Shown here: piece by piece, positions 11,780 through 23,056 of the stretch
How positions within the stretch are numbered: position 1 is the first letter of the stretch
Layout: the number at the start of each line of letters is the position of its first letter
Assembly: GCA_019638675.1 (NCBI GenBank)
Contig: JAHBTE010000001.1
Coordinates: 1,396,605-1,460,604 of the forward strand
DNA length: 64,000 bases
Reading direction: 5' to 3'
Origin: Fimbriimonadaceae bacterium
GTDB taxonomy: Bacteria > Armatimonadota > Fimbriimonadia > Fimbriimonadales > Fimbriimonadaceae
Made by a program: the position numbers and the translations under genes
The notes under the pieces: generated by a model
Told to the model about the DNA's origin: nothing
The model's input: only the letters and a program-made list of their open reading frames with translations
The model's database searches: none

Positions 11780-11795
11780 TGGCACAGTTTTTGCC
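11780..11795 (+). promoter_or_regulatory. Sigma-54 (-24/-12) promoter, strong match
   Basis: TGGCAC (11780-11785), 5-nt spacer, TTGCC (11791-11795): an exact match to the RpoN consensus TGGCAC-N5-TTGC. Transcription would begin about 12 nt downstream of the GC, near 11807, leaving a leader of roughly 45 nt to the ATG at 11853 of the acetyltransferase gene. Confidence 0.75.
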
Positions 11796-11852
11796 CCTTA
11801 AATTTCATTTTTAGACAAGAGAATTGTAACTCAGCCACAATAGAGAGCATCC

Positions 11853-12425
11853 ATGAGCGAGCCAAGCGGACAAATAGACCTCACCAAAAGCAAAACGAAA
11901 TGGTCGAAATCCATTATTATCCGCCGAATTCTATGGGGCATTTGCTGGACATTGCTTTTTCGCCCTTCTCCAAAATTTTTTTTTAATGGGTGGCGAAATG
12001 CACTTTTGAGATTATTTGGCGCCAAAGTTGGGGCAAACGTAAAAATTCATAACACGGTCAAGATTCTTTATCCATGGGAGTTGGAAATCGGGGATGGCAG
12101 TTGGATTGGATGGGATGTTGACGTTTATAACTATGCTCGTGTGAAAATTGGGCGTATGAGTGTGGTTTCGCAATACACCTATCTTTGCACGGGAACTCAT
12201 GACTTTGAAGACCCGACTTTTCCGCTGACCTTTCAGCCCATCACCATCGGTGATCAGGCTTGGGTAGCGGCCAAGTGTTTTGTTGCTCCGGGTGTGATAA
12301 TTGGCGACGGAACAATTATCGCTAGCGCAAGCGTGGTGACAAAGGATATGCCTGAGTGGCAAATCTGCGCTGGAAACCCCTGTAAACCAATCAAAGAAAG
12401 ACCATCGGTGAGACCGAGCCGATAA
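11853..12425 (+). CDS. WcaF-like hexapeptide-repeat acyltransferase
   Basis: Left-handed beta-helix O-acetyltransferase, probably decorating an EPS sugar. After a helical N-terminus (IIRRILWGICWTLLFR), hexapeptide repeats run from about residue 55 (GAKVGANVKIHNTVKI) to 180; the VYNYARVKIG and CTGTHDFEDPTFPLT segments match the colanic acid WcaF family, with the catalytic-type His in THDF. 190 aa is typical. It has a sigma-54 promoter and overlaps the end of the convergent glycosyltransferase gene by 35 nt. Confidence 0.88.
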   Translation: MSEPSGQIDLTKSKTKWSKSIIIRRILWGICWTLLFRPSPKFFFNGWRNALLRLFGAKVGANVKIHNTVKILYPWELEIGDGSWIGWDVDVYNYARVKIGRMSVVSQYTYLCTGTHDFEDPTFPLTFQPITIGDQAWVAAKCFVAPGVIIGDGTIIASASVVTKDMPEWQICAGNPCKPIKERPSVRPSR

Positions 12426-13536
12426 AGGCTGATCCTTTCGCAGCGTAAAAAATTGCTTTGGCCATATTTTGCGCCATTTGCTCGGATGAGAAGGTTTTTA
12501 GAACTGCCTCTTGACCAGCTTCAGAAAATTGCATCATCTTTTCCTTGTGTGCGTGTATGTAAGCCAATTTGTCAGCTAGATCGCTAACAGAATTAGCTTC
12601 AAAGAATAAAGAATTTTTCCCTTCCTCAAGCACTACTATCTCAGGGCTATGCGGTTCGTTATCTGCTGCGAGCATCGGAACTCCATATGCTAGAGCATGA
12701 ATTGCGCTTAGGCCAACATATCCTGGCGATACCGATACCAGTGACTGATTAAAAATGGGAGCAAGCGACTTTTGATCGTACACGGCACCATTTAACTGAA
12801 TTCTATCTTTGTATGGCGAATTGCTGATTCTTTGTTCAACAGTTACTTGATCTGGTCCTTCTCCAATAATGATCAAGTTGCCTGAAATTCCATATTTCTT
12901 TATCGCCTCTTCAAAGCCATCAATAAGAAGGGGCACTTTCTTTTCTGGTATTAGCCTCCCTACATAAACAATATCCTCACGATCTTGGGTGTATGGTGTC
13001 GCAAGCTCTGCTATTTCTTCGGTTTCGATTGAGTTCCATGCTACGAATAGCTTTGCTTTCGGAATGCCGAACTTTTCAAGTACCTTGGCACCTTCTGGAT
13101 AGTAAAGGATCGTCGCATCTGCTTTGCTACAAAGGTTCGTATACAATTTAGCGAAACGACCTCGTGGGCGAATTCCGTGTCCCCACCAGACCACGGGCAC
13201 GCCTCGCCATTTTGCAATTTTGAAGAGAATTAGGTTAATTACAGAACGTGGATTGAGTGCAAGAACAAGAACATCAGGCTTTAGTTGAAAGAATGATCGA
13301 AGCAATCCAAATTGGAGAATGATCATGTCATTGCTGCCGATGAACCTATTTTTATTAACAACTACTTTGAGCCCATCTGGATTCAAGACACTTTGTAAAC
13401 CCGTATCTTCTGAGGCCTGTCCATATACATATGTTACATCTAGTCGAGGAATCGCTGCAAGTGCTCTAAACACTGAGAGTCTGTAAGGAGCCATGATACG
13501 TTGCTGTACTAAGACTCGAATTGGTGAATTCTGCAT
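12391..13536 (-). CDS. Glycosyltransferase family 4-type
   Basis: GT-B fold retaining glycosyltransferase (381 aa). The N-terminal domain opens IRVLVQQRIMAPYRLSVFRA; the C-terminal nucleotide-sugar domain has VYVGRLIPEKKVPLLIDGF, IIGEGPD and the E-x7-E region (SPEIVVLEEGKNSLF). Acts in the cytoplasm on a lipid-linked glycan; donor sugar unknown. Last gene of a minus-strand operon with the epimerase and GT upstream (spacing 14 nt). Its C-terminus overlaps the 3' end of the acetyltransferase gene on the other strand. Confidence 0.88.
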   Translation of the reverse strand: MQNSPIRVLVQQRIMAPYRLSVFRALAAIPRLDVTYVYGQASEDTGLQSVLNPDGLKVVVNKNRFIGSNDMIILQFGLLRSFFQLKPDVLVLALNPRSVINLILFKIAKWRGVPVVWWGHGIRPRGRFAKLYTNLCSKADATILYYPEGAKVLEKFGIPKAKLFVAWNSIETEEIAELATPYTQDREDIVYVGRLIPEKKVPLLIDGFEEAIKKYGISGNLIIIGEGPDQVTVEQRISNSPYKDRIQLNGAVYDQKSLAPIFNQSLVSVSPGYVGLSAIHALAYGVPMLAADNEPHSPEIVVLEEGKNSLFFEANSVSDLADKLAYIHAHKEKMMQFSEAGQEAVLKTFSSEQMAQNMAKAIFYAAKGSAFIGSVSPMVFL

Positions 13537-13550
13537 GATCCCATTCAGCT

Positions 13551-14489
13551 CTACATCTGGATAGACTGAATTAATTCCTTTAATCCGTCATCAAGACCAA
13601 TTTTGCGCTCAAACCTAATAATGTTTTTCGCTTGAGCGGGAGAACCTTCTGAATTGATAATATCTCCTTCGCGCGCAGGAGATGTTCTTAACTCAGACTT
13701 AGAGCCTGAAATTCCGATAATTTTCTGAGCTAACTCAGAAACTGAGGTTGAGCTACCTGTACAAACATTAATCCCATCTCCCTTTATCCTAGCTGTCATT
13801 GCAAGAATATTTGCGCGCACAACATCATGAACGGAGACGAAGTCACGCTTCTGGTTCCCTCCGCCATGAAGAAAAATAGGCTCATCATTTATTGCCGAGT
13901 TGATAAACTTACTGATCACGCCGCTATATGGAGAATCTGAACGTTGCCGTGGGCCATAAACGTTGAAATAACGCAAGCAGACACCGGATAAGTTGTATAA
14001 ATCGCAATAGTTCCGAACATAATGTTCGCCAAGCAACTTCTGGCTGCCGTACAGCGAAATAGGGTTGCAAGTGGCGGACTCTTGAATGGGAATTTGAGTG
14101 GAATCGCCGTAGATTGCTGCTGACGAACTGAAAACGATATGAGCGTGATTCTTGCGAGCTTGCTCTAGTATTGCCAGCGTTCCTGATGCATTGACCTCAT
14201 GTGCAAGAATCGGTTCTTCCAGAGTCTGTGCAACATTGCTGACCGCAGCAAGATGAAAGATAACGTCAGATCCTTCTGCGGCAAGTGAAAGAGCGTCCGG
14301 CTCTAAAATTGAACTCCTAATTATGCGGATTTTTGGATCAAGGTGAGACAAATTTGACTCTAATCCGTTACTCATATCATCAATAATCGTAACTTCGATT
14401 CCATTCTCATGAAGTGCTGTAACTAAATGAGAGCCGATAAATCCGGCACCCCCTGTAACGAGCGCCTTTTGTACGTTCATGCTTTGCAA
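13551..14489 (-). CDS. NAD-dependent sugar epimerase (UDP-glucose 4-epimerase-like)
   Basis: Extended SDR acting on a nucleotide sugar. Rossmann motif GGAGFIGSHL, the serine of FSSSAAIYGD, and the catalytic YGSQK (Tyr/Lys pair) followed by RYFNVYGPRQ are all seen; 312 aa is usual. The start could be either of two ATGs three codons apart (MQSMNV). It overlaps the upstream glycosyltransferase by 13 nt, so it belongs to the same transcript. The exact reaction (4-epimerase of UDP-Glc, UDP-GlcNAc or UDP-uronate) is not decided by the sequence; the neighbouring UDP-glucose dehydrogenase makes a uronate epimerase possible. Confidence 0.88.
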   Translation of the reverse strand: MQSMNVQKALVTGGAGFIGSHLVTALHENGIEVTIIDDMSNGLESNLSHLDPKIRIIRSSILEPDALSLAAEGSDVIFHLAAVSNVAQTLEEPILAHEVNASGTLAILEQARKNHAHIVFSSSAAIYGDSTQIPIQESATCNPISLYGSQKLLGEHYVRNYCDLYNLSGVCLRYFNVYGPRQRSDSPYSGVISKFINSAINDEPIFLHGGGNQKRDFVSVHDVVRANILAMTARIKGDGINVCTGSSTSVSELAQKIIGISGSKSELRTSPAREGDIINSEGSPAQAKNIIRFERKIGLDDGLKELIQSIQM

Positions 14490-15700
14490 TGTCCGTTACT
14501 CATAGCCTCGGCTCGCACCAGCTCGTAGATTCGCATCATAGCTTGATAATTGATTTTGGGTGTGTAATGTTCTTCGTAACGGAGCCGCCCTAGCTTTGAA
14601 CGTTGATTGAATTCCTGCTCAGGCATTGATATTGCCTTTTTCAGCACTTCACGGAGTGCCATTGCATCGCTAGGCTTAAACGATAGCCCTATGTTGTCAC
14701 AGTCAGCAATCTCAGGCATTTGGCCGTGGGCTGGCACTATTGGGATGGTTCCAACTGCCATAGCTTCTATGAGAGTCAGTCCAAACGATTCATAGCAGTG
14801 CGAGCTATTAACCAGAAAATGAGATTCTCGAATGGCTTCCTGAGCCTGCTCTTGCTCAACCCAACCCAAAAAGTGGATAGAAGGATCACCCGCCGCTTGG
14901 GCCTTGTATTCTTCTTCAAGTGGGCCCGTGCCGAGTAAATGAAGTTCCCAATCTGAAGGCATACTGTTTTTCCACGCCTCTATTAATACTTCAGCCCCTT
15001 TATCCTCGACAAATCGACCAACAAAAACGACCTTTTTTGTGCGTTGAATTGGTCTGAAACCCGCATCCACTGTGGAATGTCCTTTAACATGAATCCGATT
15101 TTTCGGCAGGCCAGATCGTATGAATATTTCTTTTGCGAACTGAGAAAGCGCTATGTAGCCATCGCATCGGGAGGTGAAACTTCCATTCCACCGGTTAAAC
15201 TGTTGCATAGCGACAATTGGCACAGTTGCTATGAATGAGCCGCGATAACACTTATGCTTCAATGCGGGAGTTGGAAATTTGCCCACGCAGTCTTGGCAGG
15301 TGTGATTGTCTCGCATTAAATTAGCCGCCGCACAGCATGTGCGAAAGTTATGCAGTGTTTGAATAACTGGCACACCTTCTAAATTGCAGGCTTTATAAAT
15401 GCTCGGGCTGAGGTGGGCAAAAAAATTGTGGCAATGAACTATATCTGGAGAATATTTTTGAATGGCTTGTCGAACCTGACTCAGCCCTTCCTTGGACCAG
15501 ACAATCTTGCGGGCTGTGCGGATTTTGTTGGTCAGTCCAACATTGTCATCAGGTGCATTGTCAACAAAGAACTGTTCAACCACATGACCATGATCACTGA
15601 GGATTTGCGCTTCTGCTTCCAGAACTGCAATCTCCCCCCCTGGGCTCCAGATGTAGCGATTGTGCACTTGCAGGATGCGCGTCTTCTGTTCTTTGTGCAT
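14477..15700 (-). CDS. Glycosyltransferase family 4-type
   Basis: GT-B glycosyltransferase of 407 aa. N-terminal domain begins TRILQVHNRYIWSPGGEIAV; a cysteine-rich stretch (FRTCCAAANLMRDNHTCQDC) around residues 120-140 resembles the structural zinc-like insert of several GT4 enzymes. The C-terminal donor domain shows VVFVGRFVEDKGAEVLIEAW, LLGTGPLEEEY and ESFGLTLIEAMAVGTIPIV, the E-x7-E motif. First gene of the minus-strand trio with the epimerase and the second GT. Donor and acceptor unknown. Confidence 0.9.
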   Translation of the reverse strand: MHKEQKTRILQVHNRYIWSPGGEIAVLEAEAQILSDHGHVVEQFFVDNAPDDNVGLTNKIRTARKIVWSKEGLSQVRQAIQKYSPDIVHCHNFFAHLSPSIYKACNLEGVPVIQTLHNFRTCCAAANLMRDNHTCQDCVGKFPTPALKHKCYRGSFIATVPIVAMQQFNRWNGSFTSRCDGYIALSQFAKEIFIRSGLPKNRIHVKGHSTVDAGFRPIQRTKKVVFVGRFVEDKGAEVLIEAWKNSMPSDWELHLLGTGPLEEEYKAQAAGDPSIHFLGWVEQEQAQEAIRESHFLVNSSHCYESFGLTLIEAMAVGTIPIVPAHGQMPEIADCDNIGLSFKPSDAMALREVLKKAISMPEQEFNQRSKLGRLRYEEHYTPKINYQAMMRIYELVRAEAMSNGHCKA

Positions 15701-15760
15701 TAGCCTTAAGTATGGTCAATTTGGCATCGTCGCGTATGTTCAGCTTAGATTTAAAGTTTT

Positions 15761-15776
15761 TGGAATGGATATTGCA
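15761..15776 (+). promoter_or_regulatory. Weak sigma-54-like promoter
   Basis: TGGAAT (15761-15766), 5-nt spacer, TTGCA (15772-15776). The -12 element is perfect and the invariant GG is kept, but the -24 element differs at two positions from TGGCAC. It lies 60 nt upstream of the ATG at 15836. Confidence 0.35.
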
Positions 15777-15835
15777 ATATCTTCCCATAATGATTACTAT
15801 CTCTTGATACCTGGGGAAGTTATTTTGGGCTGAAT

Positions 15836-17014
15836 ATGAAAAAAGGGATACACACTTACCATCGAATCGTATTTTGGCAAAATATTGCGTCTCATCATCA
15901 ATCTCAATTTATGATGACCTTAGCCGAGCAATACGGCATTGAGGTTGTGTGGGCGGTTGAATCGGATAATGGTAAAGATCGCTCAGAGATGGGTTGGCCG
16001 GACTGTCCTGGTGGAAGTGCTCAACTCGTTTTGGCTCCCGATTCAAAGAGGATCAATGAAATACTCAGTATCGATCCTGATCGATCTCTTCATTTGTTTG
16101 GTGGAATATTTTTTAATCCAACAGTCAGGAAGGCTTTTTTCAAAGCAGTTTTCAAGCCGCTTAAGTTGGCTCTAATGACTGAGGCACCTCTCCCGGCGGG
16201 ATTTGAGGAATCAGGCGCAAAATCAAAGGCGAGCAAACTAAAAAAATTCCTACCGATTGCGCATATGCTGACTAGATTGTTATTTGGCAGAAAAATCATT
16301 GCTATCTTTTGCATTGGAGCGATGTGTGCAGATTTCTATAAAAAAGTTGGTTATGAAGATGAAAAGCTCATACCTTGGGCTTACTATCCTCCTAACCCCA
16401 CCTCAGTCCCAGCAATCAATCCCGACGACGGAATCGTTCAGTTGACTTATTTGGGAGCAATGAATCATAGGAAAGGTACAGACCTTCTGATGAAGGCTCT
16501 CACCCCTTTAAAAGGATTGAATTGGCATCTGAATTGTATAGGTGATGGCACTCTAGCGAAAGAATGCAGAGATATTGTGCAGAAGGGCGATATAGGGCAT
16601 CAAGTCACGATTCAAGGATATCTGCCATGGGAGCAAGCAATGGATTTGCTCGCAATATCAGATATTGCGCTTGTTCCAAGTCGGCATGATGGATGGGGTG
16701 CAGTAGTGAGCGAAGCGCTAATGAGGGGAGTTCCAGCAATAGCGACGGATCACTGTGGATCAGCAGATTTACTCGGTCAACCTTGGCGAGGGGCAGTTGT
16801 AAAAGCCAATGATGTAGATGCATTGACTCTAGCACTGCGTAATTGCATAGCAAAGGGAAAGCTTACAAGTGCAGAACGCACTAGAATTGCCGACTGGTCG
16901 GTTAAGTGTCAAGCTTCCACAGGGGTTGATTATTTTATTTCTACCCTTAAGTATTTTGAATTGGGAGGTCAGAAACCATCTGCTCCCTGGCACGATAAGA
17001 CTGGGACGGGGTAG
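15836..17014 (+). CDS. Glycosyltransferase (GT4-like)
   Basis: 392-aa GT-B glycosyltransferase. The C-terminal half has LTYLGAMNHRKGTDLLMKAL, CIGDGTLAKECRDIV, GYLPWEQAMDLLAISDIALVP and RHDGWGAVVSEALMRGVPAI, the E-x7-E donor-binding motif. The N-terminal domain (HTYHRIVFWQNIASHHQSQF) is of the type that reads 'where the acceptor is approached'; its conservation is low, as usual. It stands alone on the plus strand, divergent from the previous GT and 48 nt upstream of glmS. Donor sugar unknown. Confidence 0.85.
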   Translation: MKKGIHTYHRIVFWQNIASHHQSQFMMTLAEQYGIEVVWAVESDNGKDRSEMGWPDCPGGSAQLVLAPDSKRINEILSIDPDRSLHLFGGIFFNPTVRKAFFKAVFKPLKLALMTEAPLPAGFEESGAKSKASKLKKFLPIAHMLTRLLFGRKIIAIFCIGAMCADFYKKVGYEDEKLIPWAYYPPNPTSVPAINPDDGIVQLTYLGAMNHRKGTDLLMKALTPLKGLNWHLNCIGDGTLAKECRDIVQKGDIGHQVTIQGYLPWEQAMDLLAISDIALVPSRHDGWGAVVSEALMRGVPAIATDHCGSADLLGQPWRGAVVKANDVDALTLALRNCIAKGKLTSAERTRIADWSVKCQASTGVDYFISTLKYFELGGQKPSAPWHDKTGTG

Positions 17015-17062
17015 ACGATTCGCCGAAGCCATTTCATTAACTATGCTACGATTTCCTAACTG

Positions 17063-18889
17063 ATGTGTGGAATCGCAGGATATGTAGGTCAGCGGAATGC
17101 TATTGAAATTGTTCTTGATCAAATAGAACGATTGGAATACCGCGGTTATGATTCGACTGGGGTTGCTTTCAAAAGCGGCGATTCGTTGCAGATCATGAAG
17201 CGCGCAGGCAAGTTGGCTCACCTGCGTGCGGCTGTCGAAGAAGAGAATCCGTTTTCCGAAGTTGCGATTGCTCACTCTCGCTGGGCGACTCACGGGGCTC
17301 CGAATGATCTCAACGCTCATCCACACTATGATGCAACTGGCGAAGTTGCTCTCATCCACAACGGAATTATCGAGAACTACCTCGAACTCAAAGAAGAACT
17401 GACCCGGGCCGGGCACGTTTTTCAAAGTGAGACAGATAGTGAAGTCGCCGCTCACATCATCGGGCTAGAGTACGCCGAAGGCGTTCCACTTGAAGAAGCT
17501 GTCCGCAGGGCCGTTGGAAAGTTCACCGGCGCGTACGGATTTGTAGTTATTTCCATGCGAGAACCTGGAAAAATCGTTTGCGCTCGGAATGCCAGCCCCC
17601 TGGTTGTCGGCTTTGGAAAAGGCGAAAACTTTATTGCTAGTGATATTCCGGCATTGCTTCCTTACACGCGAACTGTGGCCGTTTTGGACAACGAAATGGT
17701 CGCTCTGGTGACAACCGAAGGAATATCTGCGGTCTCGCCAGATGGTCGGACAGTCAAGCTCAGCCCGTTTGATGTTGATTGGGATATTGAATCGGCTGAA
17801 AAAGGCGGCTACGAGCACTTCATGCTCAAAGAGATTCATGAGCAAGACGATGTTGTACGTCAATGCTTGGCTGGTCGGCTTGGGCAAGAGAACCTAACCT
17901 TAGACGGCTTGTTTGGCGAACACGTCTGGCAGGATATTGACCGGGTTAACATCATTGCGTGCGGCACCGCTTACCATGCGGGTCTGATGGGCAAGACTCT
18001 TTTCGAGAAAATGCTCCGGTTACCAACTGATGTTTATTTTTCAAGTGAGTTTCGTTACAACGACCCCTTGCTTTCGCCTAAAAGCCTTGCTGTATTTGTC
18101 AGCCAGAGCGGGGAAACAGCGGACAGTCTTGCCGCACTACGACTCTGCAAAGAACGGCGCATCCGCACTCTAGGCATAGTCAACGTTGTTGGTTCCAGCA
18201 TCGCTAGGGAAGTTGATCGCGTTCTCTATACACAAGCTGGCCCAGAAATCAGCGTTGCCTCGACAAAAGCTTATTTGGCTCAATGTCTGGTGCTTTATCT
18301 ATTAGGCTTGCATATCGCCGAGATCAAAGAGATGCCCGGCGTTAACGTCAAGGCTGGGTTAAAAGCAGTGCGAGAGTTTCCTGAGTATGTCAAGGAAGCT
18401 CTTGACCTCGAAAGCTCAATTCAAGATGTTGCGAAGCAGTTTGCGAACTCCAAACTTGCATTTTTCTTGGGTCGCGGCGCAGATGCAAACGTCGCGTTGG
18501 AAGCGGCACTCAAGCTGAAAGAAATAGCTTACATTCCAACTCAGGAATGCCCAGCCGGGGAAATGAAGCACGGCCCTCTCGCGCTGATTGAACAGGGCAC
18601 GTTATCAGTAGTTGGTGCGACTCAAGAAGATGTCCGAGACAAGCTGGTAAGCAATATTCGTGAGCTTCAAGCGCGCGGATCTCACGTTTTAGCAATCACT
18701 ACGAAGGATGACGAACTCACTCCGACGGTTGTGGATAGCTGTGCGATGATCGCTCAAACAAATGACTGGTATTTGAATGCTCTGCTCTCTATTGTGCCAT
18801 TGCAATTGTTCAGTTACTACATGGCTTTAGAGCGGGGATGCGAGATTGATCAGCCCCGTAATTTAGCCAAATCCGTAACAGTCGAGTAG
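17063..18889 (+). CDS. glmS: Glutamine--fructose-6-phosphate aminotransferase
   Basis: Makes glucosamine-6-phosphate, the first step to UDP-GlcNAc for peptidoglycan, LPS and EPS. Cys2 is the glutaminase nucleophile (MCGIAGYVGQR); RGYDSTG, HSRWATHG, NAHPH and HNGIIENY complete the glutaminase site. Two SIS domains follow (SQSGETADSLAAL, STKAY, GAMKHGPLAL-like GEMKHGPLALIEQ) and the protein ends NLAKSVTVE, the normal C-terminus. 608 aa is standard. A TATGCT hexamer lies about 15 nt before the ATG. No glmS ribozyme is expected or seen in the short 48-nt upstream gap. Confidence 0.98.
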   Translation: MCGIAGYVGQRNAIEIVLDQIERLEYRGYDSTGVAFKSGDSLQIMKRAGKLAHLRAAVEEENPFSEVAIAHSRWATHGAPNDLNAHPHYDATGEVALIHNGIIENYLELKEELTRAGHVFQSETDSEVAAHIIGLEYAEGVPLEEAVRRAVGKFTGAYGFVVISMREPGKIVCARNASPLVVGFGKGENFIASDIPALLPYTRTVAVLDNEMVALVTTEGISAVSPDGRTVKLSPFDVDWDIESAEKGGYEHFMLKEIHEQDDVVRQCLAGRLGQENLTLDGLFGEHVWQDIDRVNIIACGTAYHAGLMGKTLFEKMLRLPTDVYFSSEFRYNDPLLSPKSLAVFVSQSGETADSLAALRLCKERRIRTLGIVNVVGSSIAREVDRVLYTQAGPEISVASTKAYLAQCLVLYLLGLHIAEIKEMPGVNVKAGLKAVREFPEYVKEALDLESSIQDVAKQFANSKLAFFLGRGADANVALEAALKLKEIAYIPTQECPAGEMKHGPLALIEQGTLSVVGATQEDVRDKLVSNIRELQARGSHVLAITTKDDELTPTVVDSCAMIAQTNDWYLNALLSIVPLQLFSYYMALERGCEIDQPRNLAKSVTVE

Positions 18890-18914
18890 TTTTACGGGTG
18901 AGATTAACCTAAAT

Positions 18915-18930
18915 TGGCACGTTCCATGTT
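18915..18930 (+). promoter_or_regulatory. Sigma-54-like promoter, moderate match
   Basis: TTGGCACG surrounds TGGCAC (18915-18920), then 5 nt and ATGTT (18926-18930), which differs from TTGCW at two positions, including the C of the -12 GC. Predicted start is only about 4 nt before the ATG at 18946, so the transcript would be nearly leaderless if this is used. Confidence 0.4.
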
Positions 18931-18945
18931 CCGACTATTGGAACC

Positions 18946-19287
18946 ATGGGAGCACTACGTAAGACTGCACCGGAAATTCTGCAGCCAACGCAGATCATCA
19001 TTTTTCCGGTAGATCAGGCAAGACCTGATCTTATCGAACGTCCAAGCGCATGGGAACGCTTTGCCGATAGCCCGGTGGGAAGCCTGGTTTTGTTCGAGAT
19101 CAAAATGTTTGCTACCGTTGCGGCAGTGGCATTGGTGCTTGTCGGATCGTTGGCATTTGGATACACCGCTAAGAGTGCAGCCGGCATCGATCTTTACCCA
19201 GAAGCAAGCCTTTCACAGTGGAAACCAGCTTTTGATGCGACTTACATGCAGCCAGGGCACACATTCGCAGGCCAAAGCTTCAATTAA
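18946..19287 (+). CDS. Small single-span membrane protein of unknown function
   Basis: Not recognised. 113 aa: a cytoplasmic-type N-terminal half (residues 1-52, rich in Pro and charged residues), one membrane span near residues 53-75 (MFATVAAVALVLVGSLAFGY) and a 38-residue outer tail (ending GHTFAGQSFN). The span is central, and there is no PEP-CTERM-type tail, so it is not an evident exosortase substrate. It sits between glmS and the first sugar transferase, under a sigma-54-like promoter, and is therefore a candidate accessory protein of the EPS locus. Confidence 0.6.
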   Translation: MGALRKTAPEILQPTQIIIFPVDQARPDLIERPSAWERFADSPVGSLVLFEIKMFATVAAVALVLVGSLAFGYTAKSAAGIDLYPEASLSQWKPAFDATYMQPGHTFAGQSFN

Positions 19288-19440
19288 CCGCACGTTCACC
19301 AAGGTTATTGATATAATAAAGAGAGAGGTCAATAAAGACCTTGTCGTATTGGAACAAGCAAGGGCCCAAAAGCGTCATTTTTGCTAGGTCTTGCTGGTCA
19401 TCGTGAATTGTCACGAAACTTGACCTTAATTTGAAGTGGG
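19288..19440 (+). promoter_or_regulatory. Leader region of the first sugar transferase gene
   Basis: No gene in this 153-nt gap. It contains TATAATAAAG near 19312-19321 (a -10-like element without a good -35), a short stem with arms AGGTC/GACCT around AATAAA, and TTGACC further down. If the TATAAT is used, the mRNA would carry a leader of roughly 115 nt. No known riboswitch was recognised. Confidence 0.3.
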
Positions 19441-20148
19441 ATGATTACGGAACAGCCGTTGGTAGAGGCAAGATCCTCGAAACGAGAACGTAAAGGTGGC
19501 AAAGGCCCGCGTTCTGTTCCTCGCTATGAGCAGCCTAGTTTCAAATTTATGAAGCGCACTGCTGATATTGGTTTGTCTGCGGCTGGGTTGGTATTGTTTG
19601 CCCCAGTATTTCTGGTGCTCAGTGTCATCGTGGTGAGCGCAGATGGGGGACCAATATTTTTCAAACAGAAGCGAATTGGTCAGTATGGCGAAGTATTTTG
19701 GATGTACAAATTCCGAACGATGCGTAAGGATGCCGAAAAGGTTTTAGCTGAGATTCTCGATAAGGATCCAGAAGCCCGCAAAGAGTACGAACAATCGTTC
19801 AAATTAAAAAATGATCCACGTCTCATTCGTTTCGGAAAATTTATGAGAGCTACCAGCTTAGATGAGTTACCTCAGTTTCTAAACGTTCTCATTGGACGCA
19901 TGAGTATTGTTGGCCCACGCCCCATGTTGCTGAGTGAAGTTGAGAAAATGGGCGATCGGATAGAAACTTATAAGAAGATGAAACCGGGTTGCGCAGGGCT
20001 GTGGCAGGCAAGCGGGCGAAATGATGTCAGTTATGAGGCTCGCATGGCTCTCAATGAAGAATATTATCGCGACGCTTCCTTCCGCAGGGATTTTGTTGTG
20101 CTTTGGAACACAGTGAAAGCCATGGTGCTTGCCCGCGGGGCCTACTAG
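19441..20148 (+). CDS. Polyprenyl-phosphate sugar-1-phosphate transferase
   Basis: Initiating EPS enzyme: transfers a hexose-1-phosphate from a UDP-sugar to undecaprenyl phosphate at the inner membrane. 235 aa: a non-conserved N-terminus, one re-entrant/membrane helix (IGLSAAGLVLFAPVFLVLSV, about residues 42-64), then the conserved catalytic domain KQKRIGQYGEVFWMYKFRTM, SLDELPQFLNVLIG, SIVGPRPML and KPGCAGLWQASGRND. A ribosome site (AAGTGGG) precedes the ATG. It is about half identical in motif order to the protein at 21232, so the locus has two priming enzymes. This small (monotopic) form lacks the extra spans of WbaP/WcaJ. Confidence 0.92.
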   Translation: MITEQPLVEARSSKRERKGGKGPRSVPRYEQPSFKFMKRTADIGLSAAGLVLFAPVFLVLSVIVVSADGGPIFFKQKRIGQYGEVFWMYKFRTMRKDAEKVLAEILDKDPEARKEYEQSFKLKNDPRLIRFGKFMRATSLDELPQFLNVLIGRMSIVGPRPMLLSEVEKMGDRIETYKKMKPGCAGLWQASGRNDVSYEARMALNEEYYRDASFRRDFVVLWNTVKAMVLARGAY

Positions 20149-20180
20149 CCTTAATAATGCTATCGCAGAATGAAGCTGTC

Positions 20181-20196
20181 TGGCACTGAATTTGCT
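20181..20196 (+). promoter_or_regulatory. Sigma-54 (-24/-12) promoter, strong match
   Basis: TGGCAC (20181-20186), 5-nt spacer, TTGCT (20192-20196): a perfect consensus match. Expected transcription start near 20208, about 12 nt upstream of the ATG at 20220. Confidence 0.78.
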
Positions 20197-20219
20197 AGAC
20201 AACATTTATCAGAGTTCAA

Positions 20220-21167
20220 ATGAAAATTCTTGGAAATACTGTTGCCGAAAATCAGTTTTGGGACGAAGCAAAATCAAACGGCCTTATTGTTGTAACTGGT
20301 GGGGCAGGCTTCATAGGTGGTCGGTTGATCCCAGCGCTAATCTCTCATTTCCCAAATCATAGAATTGTAAGCGTTGATAACTATTTCACAGGTTCAAAAG
20401 ATAATCACCATCAAGATCAAAGGTTAATGTACTTGGATGCTGCAACAATGGACGGGTTAGACTTCCTCCCAGTGGCTCCAAAATATGTCTTTCACCTCGG
20501 AGAATTCTCGCGGATTGTTCGGAGTTTTCCGGATATTGAGTATTGTGCTCAATTTAACCAAACCGGAACTTTCAAAGTTGTTGACTACTGCCGCCGCAAT
20601 GGATCGAAGTTGATTTATGCAGGTTCTAGCTCTAAATTTGGAAACGAAGGCAAGGATGAGCACCTTTCTCCATACGCATGGATGAAAGCAAAGAACATTG
20701 AACTCATCCACAATATGAAGGATTGGTTTGGACTGGATTTCGCGATCACTTACTTCTACAATGTGTATGGACCAGGTCAGATTCTGACGGGTAACTATGC
20801 AGCAGTCATTGGATTGTTTGAGGAAAAAGTAAAGCAAGGTTTGCCGCTTACAGTCGTGACACCCGGCACTCAAAAGCGAGACTTTACTCACGTTGACGAC
20901 ATTGTGCGTGGCCTTGTGCTTGCGGCAGAAAAAGGGGATGGTGATAACTATCTTCTTGGTAGCGGCGAGAACTGGACAATTCTTGAAGTCGTCGAAATGT
21001 TCGACCATCCTTATGAATTTATTCCAGAGCGCACGGGTGAACGATTTACATCTCTCGCTTATGAGAGCCGAGCGCAGGCAGAACTAGGCTGGTCGCCTCA
21101 AATCCGCCTGCCTGAATACATCAAAGCCTGGAAAGCAGAATGGTTAAAATCTCAAGGTTCAAATTGA
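20220..21167 (+). CDS. NAD-dependent epimerase/dehydratase
   Basis: Extended SDR of 315 aa. Rossmann motif GGAGFIGGRL, a serine triad YAGSSSKFG, the YAWMKAKN (Tyr/Lys pair) and FYNVYGPGQ are visible, and RDFTHVDDIVRGLVLA is typical of nucleotide-sugar epimerases. It lies between two sugar-1-phosphate transferases and has its own sigma-54 promoter, so it probably makes the sugar used by one of them. A DELGW-type C-terminal block (QAELGWSPQIRLPEYIKAW) is complete. Exact substrate is unknown. Confidence 0.86.
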   Translation: MKILGNTVAENQFWDEAKSNGLIVVTGGAGFIGGRLIPALISHFPNHRIVSVDNYFTGSKDNHHQDQRLMYLDAATMDGLDFLPVAPKYVFHLGEFSRIVRSFPDIEYCAQFNQTGTFKVVDYCRRNGSKLIYAGSSSKFGNEGKDEHLSPYAWMKAKNIELIHNMKDWFGLDFAITYFYNVYGPGQILTGNYAAVIGLFEEKVKQGLPLTVVTPGTQKRDFTHVDDIVRGLVLAAEKGDGDNYLLGSGENWTILEVVEMFDHPYEFIPERTGERFTSLAYESRAQAELGWSPQIRLPEYIKAWKAEWLKSQGSN

Positions 21168-21199
21168 ACCTAGTTAATTCGCGTAAATAATTTCTGCTT

Positions 21200-21215
21200 T
21201 GGCATGGAACGTGCT
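21200..21215 (+). promoter_or_regulatory. Sigma-54 (-24/-12) promoter, good match
   Basis: TGGCAT (21200-21205), 5-nt spacer, GTGCT (21211-21215): one mismatch in each element, with GG and GC kept at the right spacing. The predicted start is about 5 nt before the ATG at 21232. Confidence 0.6.
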
Positions 21216-21945: not shown

Positions 21946-22098
21946 ATGATAAAATCTCAGGAAGTCAGACATTCAGTTCAGGATTGCGTTGATTTTCGTT
22001 CTCATAGAAATGTTTGCCCGATGCAAGCCGTAGAAATTCAGGGAACAAAGCCAGTGTTTCTCCCGGATTTGGAACGATTGAGCCGTATTGGCTATTGA
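21946..22098 (+). CDS. Possible 50-aa small protein
   Basis: An ATG frame (MIKSQEVRHSVQDCVDFRSH... ending RLSRIGY) fills most of the gap between the second sugar transferase and the exosortase. It is soluble-looking and has two cysteines. No ribosome site is seen upstream of the ATG and no homologue is recognised, so it may be a chance frame in a leader. It ends before the likely exosortase start at 22157. Confidence 0.3.
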   Translation: MIKSQEVRHSVQDCVDFRSHRNVCPMQAVEIQGTKPVFLPDLERLSRIGY

Positions 22099-22156
22099 AT
22101 TGATAGTAGCAGATGGAAATGAAGAGAAGTTGGTCGGTGCGAATGAGGTGGGCTGT

Positions 22157-23056
22157 ATGAGTTCACCTGCTTTAGAGGGAAGCCAGACAAGCTGGTTCCC
22201 TCAGCTAAACGTTGATTCACTCTTAAATTGGCTGAAGCAACGTGAGGTTCAGATAGGATTTCTGCTTATTGCTCTTCTCTTTGCGGTGTTTTGGCAGTTA
22301 ATGTCATTTACATTCCGCTATTGGTTTGACATGGATAGTTACTATCAGCACGGCCCTCTGGTGCCATTTGCCATGGGTTATATACTTTATGCTCACAGAG
22401 AACGCATAAACAAATACGAAGTGAAGCCAACGTTGTTACCACTTCCTTTGTTCATTGGGTTTCTAATTATGGGAGTTGTTTCTGCTTGGGCATTTTTATT
22501 TGTTCCGGTTCAGTGTTTTTTCTTGGTTGGTGCACTATGTACTCTGGCTTGGATGATTTATGGTTTCAAAAGAGCTTGGGCTATGAGCCCAGCTCTACTT
22601 TTTAGTTTAGTGGGCTTGCCTTTTTGGAACCGTGTGATTGACGACAATACGAACCAACTGCAGATTTGGAGTACTGGCGGAGCATTTAAAATTCTAGAAA
22701 TTATTGGGATGCACCCATTTAGGCAGAGTGCTACTTCAATCCAGCTAGGTAATTTTCCGCTTGAAGTAGCTGCAGCATGTAGCGGGATGAAATTAACTCT
22801 GGCACTGCTCTCATCAGTAATTTTCATTATGTTGATTGCAAGATTAAAGTGGTGGGGAAATCTGGTGTTAATAGGTATGACATTGCCTTTGGCAGTTGCG
22901 ATCAATTCATTGAGAATTGCAATAATTGGGCTCTTCGGTGATTTAGTGAGTTCGGAAGCTGGTTATATGTTCCATGACTATGGAAGCTACCTAACTCTAA
23001 TCCTTGCATTTTGGATTCTTTATGCCACTGCAAAAAAGCTTGGGTGGAAAGTATGA
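22157..23056 (+). CDS. Exosortase (EpsH/XrtA-type)
   Basis: Polytopic membrane transpeptidase-like protein of the exosortase family, usually linked to PEP-CTERM protein sorting or to EPS assembly. About eight spans; the catalytic triad residues are visible as Cys208 (AACSGMKL), Arg253 (INSLRIAI) and His273 (MFHDYGSYL). The frame is open from a TTG at 22088, but ATG at 22157 with GAGGTG 7 nt upstream is the better start, giving 299 aa. The stop overlaps the start of the EpsI-like gene (ATGA). No PEP-CTERM substrate is evident in this window; the context is a polysaccharide locus, as in EpsH/EpsI systems. Confidence 0.9.
   Translation: MSSPALEGSQTSWFPQLNVDSLLNWLKQREVQIGFLLIALLFAVFWQLMSFTFRYWFDMDSYYQHGPLVPFAMGYILYAHRERINKYEVKPTLLPLPLFIGFLIMGVVSAWAFLFVPVQCFFLVGALCTLAWMIYGFKRAWAMSPALLFSLVGLPFWNRVIDDNTNQLQIWSTGGAFKILEIIGMHPFRQSATSIQLGNFPLEVAAACSGMKLTLALLSSVIFIMLIARLKWWGNLVLIGMTLPLAVAINSLRIAIIGLFGDLVSSEAGYMFHDYGSYLTLILAFWILYATAKKLGWKV

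Follow-up and report, generated by a model that had tools for sequence, protein, structure and literature searches.

The window considered here, a 64,000 nucleotide stretch (C1:1396605-1460604) of the 2.85 Mb genome of a member of the Fimbriimonadaceae, contains a locus with genes for EPS production, among them a hexapeptide acyltransferase, glycosyltransferases, epimerases, a glmS-like gene and two initiating sugar transferases, and the same locus encodes an exosortase, an EpsI-like protein and a tyrosine kinase. The nearest named relative found, with an epimerase identity of 94%, is the Fimbriimonadaceae MAG ACE_ARM8 (CP075366, Armatimonadota). Short sequences resembling the -24/-12 promoters of sigma-54 are present in front of several of the genes, and the question raised is whether they function as such and, if so, what switches them on. 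Our reading, which we consider probable, is that they are genuine sigma-54 promoters that would fire several plus-strand EPS/exosortase genes independently, with their activator working from solution, and that the genes form one co-regulated set.

Five sites had been pointed out in an earlier note on this DNA. The two that it described as perfect for TGGCAC-N5-TTGC, at 11780 and 20181, are exact and are the only exact matches in the window, where 0.22 are expected. Scores (Table 1) are from a matrix with a maximum of 19, drawn up from what is generally known of the -24/-12 consensus rather than by training on promoters mapped in this phylum; counts of the exact pattern are independent of it. 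The grading of the site at 21200 as good and of that at 18915 as weak stands, the latter having GT instead of GC in its -12 element and falling below threshold in this genome, but the site at 15761, which had been ranked with the weaker ones, is a good one. All five are on the same strand as the gene and, as had been stated, upstream of plus-strand genes, though the distance from the end of the site to the start codon is 16-60 nt rather than 5-60 nt, the starts having been called mechanically as those of the longest ORF. The assertion that no other properly spaced site precedes a gene in the window is borne out, as no further intergenic match scoring at least 12.5 is ahead of a gene there and the remaining matches are all within ORFs.

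Table 1. Predicted sigma-54 sites and associated genes (positions are those of the window, except that the prefix C1 denotes contig positions; sites outside the window are at least those found among the matches listed)
Feature	Position	Strand	Remarks
-24/-12 site TGGCACAGTTTTTGCC	11780..11795	+	exact match, score 15.5; 58 nt before acyltransferase
Hexapeptide-repeat acyltransferase, 190 aa	11853..12425	+	PF00132
-24/-12 site TGGAATGGATATTGCA	15761..15776	+	score 14.2; 60 nt before glycosyltransferase
Family-1 glycosyltransferase, 392 aa	15836..17014	+	PF00534
glmS-like gene, after glycosyltransferase	17063-18889		SIS and GATase domains; without a site of its own
Weak site TGGCACGTTCCATGTT	18915..18930	+	score 11.0; 16 nt before 113-aa membrane protein
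Predicted membrane protein, 113 aa	18946..19287	+	orthologues in G003, G005, G006
-24/-12 site TGGCACTGAATTTGCT	20181..20196	+	exact match, score 16.3; 24 nt before epimerase
NAD-dependent sugar epimerase/dehydratase, 315 aa	20220..21167	+	PF01370
-24/-12 site TGGCATGGAACGTGCT	21200..21215	+	score 14.8; 17 nt before second sugar transferase
Bacterial sugar transferase (initiating glycosyltransferase), 229 aa	21232..21921	+	PF02397
Exosortase	22088..23056	+	exosortase/archaeosortase models, TIGR04178 49.6 bits (cut-off 23); without a site here
Intergenic sites TGGCACGTTAGTTGCG, TGGCACGATTGGTGCA			before two PEP-CTERM genes; kept in G003
Intergenic site TGGCACACTTTGTGCA			before SurA/PpiC-like lipoprotein (label from reading the sequence only); kept in G003
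Intergenic site TGGCACGACCATTGCA			before 125-aa membrane protein; kept in G003
Sigma-54-like site TGGCATAGGGATTGCC	C1:609205	+	before group-2 sigma-70 gene; kept in G003
Intergenic site			before sugar epimerase at C1:9580
Perfect site	C1:2744573-2744588	minus	no same-strand ORF close behind

That the sites resemble the consensus by chance, intergenic DNA being AT-richer, and that housekeeping promoters are used instead, merits consideration, as the core GG-N10-GC is short and common, three of the five sites have two mismatches to the consensus, and most of the 13 perfect matches in the genome (4 for the reversed control) are within ORFs. Against this, four of eight plus-strand EPS upstream regions contain a site that passes the matrix, compared with one of 416 other gene fronts in 464 kb of this genome, the background being 400 kb of sampled stretches (Fisher 2.6e-7, somewhat inflated since the EPS gene set was picked after the earlier note had pointed to it), and all passing sites of the window are within that set. 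In 3000 dinucleotide shuffles of the eight regions the mean number passing was 0.019 and the maximum 1. An equal density of such matches in background DNA is thereby excluded, and with an rpoN gene present in the genome, the proposal of sigma-54 promoters across the locus is supported. Counting against it, the glmS-like gene, the first sugar transferase and the exosortase have no passing site upstream in this genome, and the minus-strand genes of the locus are without sites. Within the genus there are few matches to the strictest consensus (8 in 8 genomes, with 7 for the reversed control); the regulon is therefore small, and over whole genomes consensus counts carry little weight on their own.

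Comparison with relatives also argues against chance, as sites are conserved where their flanks diverge and improve toward the consensus in other genomes. At the place of the acyltransferase site G003 has TGGCCCAGTTTTTGCA, and in G001 TGGAACGGACTTTGCG is upstream of the gene and closer to its start. The G003 counterpart of the glycosyltransferase, a protein only 38.5% identical, is preceded by TGGAATGGAAATTGCA within flanks that cannot be aligned, and for the epimerase TGGCATTGATTGTGCT (12.3) of G003 occupies the same columns. The site of the second sugar transferase is identical in G003, and in G005 and G006, where the protein is ~57% identical, it is the near-perfect TGGCACGTGACTTGCT (18.8). 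In these same two genomes the weak site at 18915 aligns column for column with a good one, GGGCACGAATCTTGCA (15.0), and the exosortase orthologue has TGGCCTGCAAATTGCA upstream, unlike its counterpart here. Chance is thus a very unlikely explanation for the sites, and, as far as sequence can tell, each of four or five surface-polysaccharide genes is provided with its own putative sigma-54 promoter. Such control is not universal even inside the genus, as the EPS locus of G004 and G007 has no above-threshold site before its genes; recognizable counterparts of the 113-aa protein, the epimerase and the second sugar transferase are absent from the stretch read of these two genomes. Many other genera also have the acyltransferase, but without a comparable, rightly placed site in its upstream regions. 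The 113-aa membrane protein, encoded between EPS genes, matches no Pfam or NCBIfam family, and its N-terminus, MGALRKT, is conserved. In G001 a near-perfect sigma-54 site, TGGCACGTCTATTGCT, is present at position 1501 of the stretch read, before a gene of the TIGR03790 family.

RpoN holoenzyme can occupy promoters without activation, and sigma-70 promoters may exist as well for some EPS genes, an example being the CACAAT before 11853, so it could be asked if the sites are roadblocks or repressive binding sites instead of promoters of the genes downstream. With every site on the same strand as its gene, oriented toward the gene start and 16-60 nt from it, this is highly improbable. A separate observation concerns GCCACAATAG (11830-11845 of the window): three sigma-54 sites are followed by it, near the start codon, and relatives that lack the sigma-54 site still retain it ahead of the acyltransferase; it may be a distinct -10-like element.

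The genome has one rpoN (TIGR02395, 300.9 bits; cut-off 277) and one true sigma-54 activator (243 bits), both outside the window, in agreement with the earlier failure to see rpoN within it. Five further AAA+ matches, at 22-33 bits, are of a kind that also matches in control genomes without sigma-54. The activator, of 402 aa, has a receiver domain (Response_reg), a Sigma54_activat domain with GAFTGA, and an AAA lid, and no HTH or other DNA-binding domain follows, which places it with the type Ic activators (receiver plus AAA+, no C-terminal HTH). Adjoining it, and downstream of murA- and mreB-like genes, is the gene for a GAF-HisKA-HATPase kinase, and the nearest models are AtoC/NtrC for the activator and AtoS for the kinase. 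The activator is retained in 55 of 61 Fimbriimonadales genomes, nearly always as the sole match at the threshold used, and rpoN in 56; both are present in 54 and neither in 4, with 2 having rpoN only and 1, a genome that is 72% complete, the activator only. The association (Fisher 1.4e-4, a rough figure since the genomes are related) reflects that the activator tends toward loss together with rpoN. All 29 copies that reach a stop, among 30 examined, end just past the AAA+ domain, and all have GAFTGA. The C-terminus is -AA in most copies, resembling a ClpXP-type C-terminal degron.

In the mechanism that these features suggest, the GAF-domain histidine kinase would phosphorylate the receiver domain of the adjoining activator, whose AAA+ ring would then act from solution on RpoN-polymerase waiting at any -24/-12 site, with no need for an upstream enhancer. 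The promoters would probably be switched on together by this one activator without a DNA-binding part, and the outer coat seems to be under a single switch. Because the activator has no DNA-binding domain and is usually the sole one, the promoters alone should define the regulon. Within the window the co-regulated set would comprise the acyltransferase, glycosyltransferase, epimerase and sugar transferase and, probably, the 113-aa membrane protein, with further members elsewhere.

The earlier note had instead drawn an analogy with PrsK/PrsR, and a proteobacterial scheme of that type, with a PrsR-like activator bound at an enhancer, could be entertained for an exosortase locus in a genome with 44 PEP-CTERM matches and sites before two PEP-CTERM genes. 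The analogy is not supported by the components, however: the activator scores 384.4 bits against a PrsR (TIGR02915) cut-off of 502.6 and has no C-terminal Fis/HTH domain, and the adjoining kinase, the only one scanned, scores 94.8 bits against a PrsK (TIGR02916) cut-off of 300. Nor is it supported by the targets, which here are mainly EPS genes, only 2 of 43 PEP-CTERM genes having strong sites; a general PEP-CTERM sigma-54 regulon was considered and rejected, as most of the 43 genes are without a site. Upstream activator sites, which the note had suggested looking for, were not found, no motif being common to ten promoters in a comparison of limited power, and with an activator that has no DNA-binding domain none would be expected. 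The proteobacterial scheme is accordingly extremely improbable.

A variant is that RpoN fires the sites while another regulator, bound to DNA, recruits or gates the activator, so that not all sites respond together. A partner could bring in an activator that lacks a DNA-binding domain, and intergenic upstream DNA in this genome shows a strong enrichment of AACCTA/TAGGTT (14 occurrences of ACCTAA compared with 1.9 expected), with one AACCTA copy, before 21232, also present in G005/G006. That enrichment is genome-wide and not specific to sigma-54 promoters, on which ground AACCTA was rejected as an activator site, and the ten promoters, within the power noted above, share no motif. Gating by such a regulator is unlikely, and direct activation from solution remains the preferred reading.

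If the promoters define the regulon, it should comprise the EPS genes, the two PEP-CTERM genes and the SurA-like foldase, and perhaps also the group-2 sigma factor, a small membrane protein and a candidate small RNA. Borrelia has an RpoN-RpoS cascade, and TGGCATAGGGATTGCC points to a possible cascade of that type, from sigma-54 to a sigma-70 family member. A site before an AI-2E-family gene was discarded because it falls inside the coding sequence of the gene ahead. Five members of the genus (this genome, G003, G005, G006 and G007) share the perfect site at C1:2744573, which is followed by a predicted stem-loop with an invariant, anti-Shine-Dalgarno-like UCCUCUCC in the loop; in G004 stem and loop are kept and the promoter site is absent. 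About 3 pairs of the stem arms, read by hand, have both bases changed, from G-C to A-U. RNAalifold support is weak, on a poor alignment, single-sequence z-scores range from -0.6 to -3.1, and there is no match in Rfam, so that a sigma-54-driven small RNA is a candidate only. Pairing with EPS ribosome-binding sites was considered and set aside, there being no 8-base match before any EPS gene start.

At the level of the order, there is about an even chance that sigma-54 in the Fimbriimonadales is a one-switch system, in which a usually single activator without a DNA-binding domain serves all -24/-12 promoters at once, and whose reach in this genus extends over the extracellular matrix (EPS enzymes, the SurA-like foldase and a few PEP-CTERM proteins) and takes in both a secondary sigma factor and a structured small RNA with the UCCUCUCC loop. 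Our literature search found no paper on sigma-54 control in Armatimonadota, and the Fimbriimonas genome paper names the sigma genes rpoD, rpoE and fliA, and not rpoN (PMC4072686). The sites provide a concrete candidate regulon for sigma-54 in this phylum, one linked to polysaccharide production and protein sorting. With normally one activator, and that one not binding DNA, the regulon should be readable from its promoters, making this a clean natural case for the question of activator specificity. The case further suggests that exosortase-type surfaces come under the control of sigma-54 with targets and regulators that differ from those in Proteobacteria.

In Proteobacteria the published targets of sigma-54/PrsKR are PEP-CTERM genes, 99 of 167 (Haft 2006, PMC1569441), and in Aquincola pepA is RpoN-dependent while RpoN does not seem to regulate the EPS biosynthesis genes (PMC9850573). 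Common to those systems and the present one are an exosortase/PEP-CTERM bacterium, -24/-12 sites near cell-surface genes and a two-component activator; the differences are the phylum, targets that are here mainly EPS enzymes with few PEP-CTERM genes, and an activator and kinase that are not PrsR and PrsK and are far from the locus, the activator being without a DNA-binding domain. Sigma-54 as a controller of the bacterial exterior is an existing idea (Francke 2011, PMC3162934), with which exopolysaccharide, lipoprotein and envelope genes and AtoC-like activators are shared, and a search of that paper's text for Armatimonad gave no match. Activators without a DNA-binding domain are known from Chlamydia, CtcC (PMC7482065), and Helicobacter, FlgR (PMC3162934). 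In common with CtcB/CtcC-sigma-54 and FlgR, whose activators are of type Ic, the system here has a receiver plus AAA+ activator, AtoC-like, as its main sigma-54 activator, and its regulon, like theirs, should be determined solely by the promoters. Unlike them, it belongs to Armatimonadota, its kinase has a GAF domain, and what it appears to govern is polysaccharide and exosortase genes, in contrast to type III secretion or flagella.
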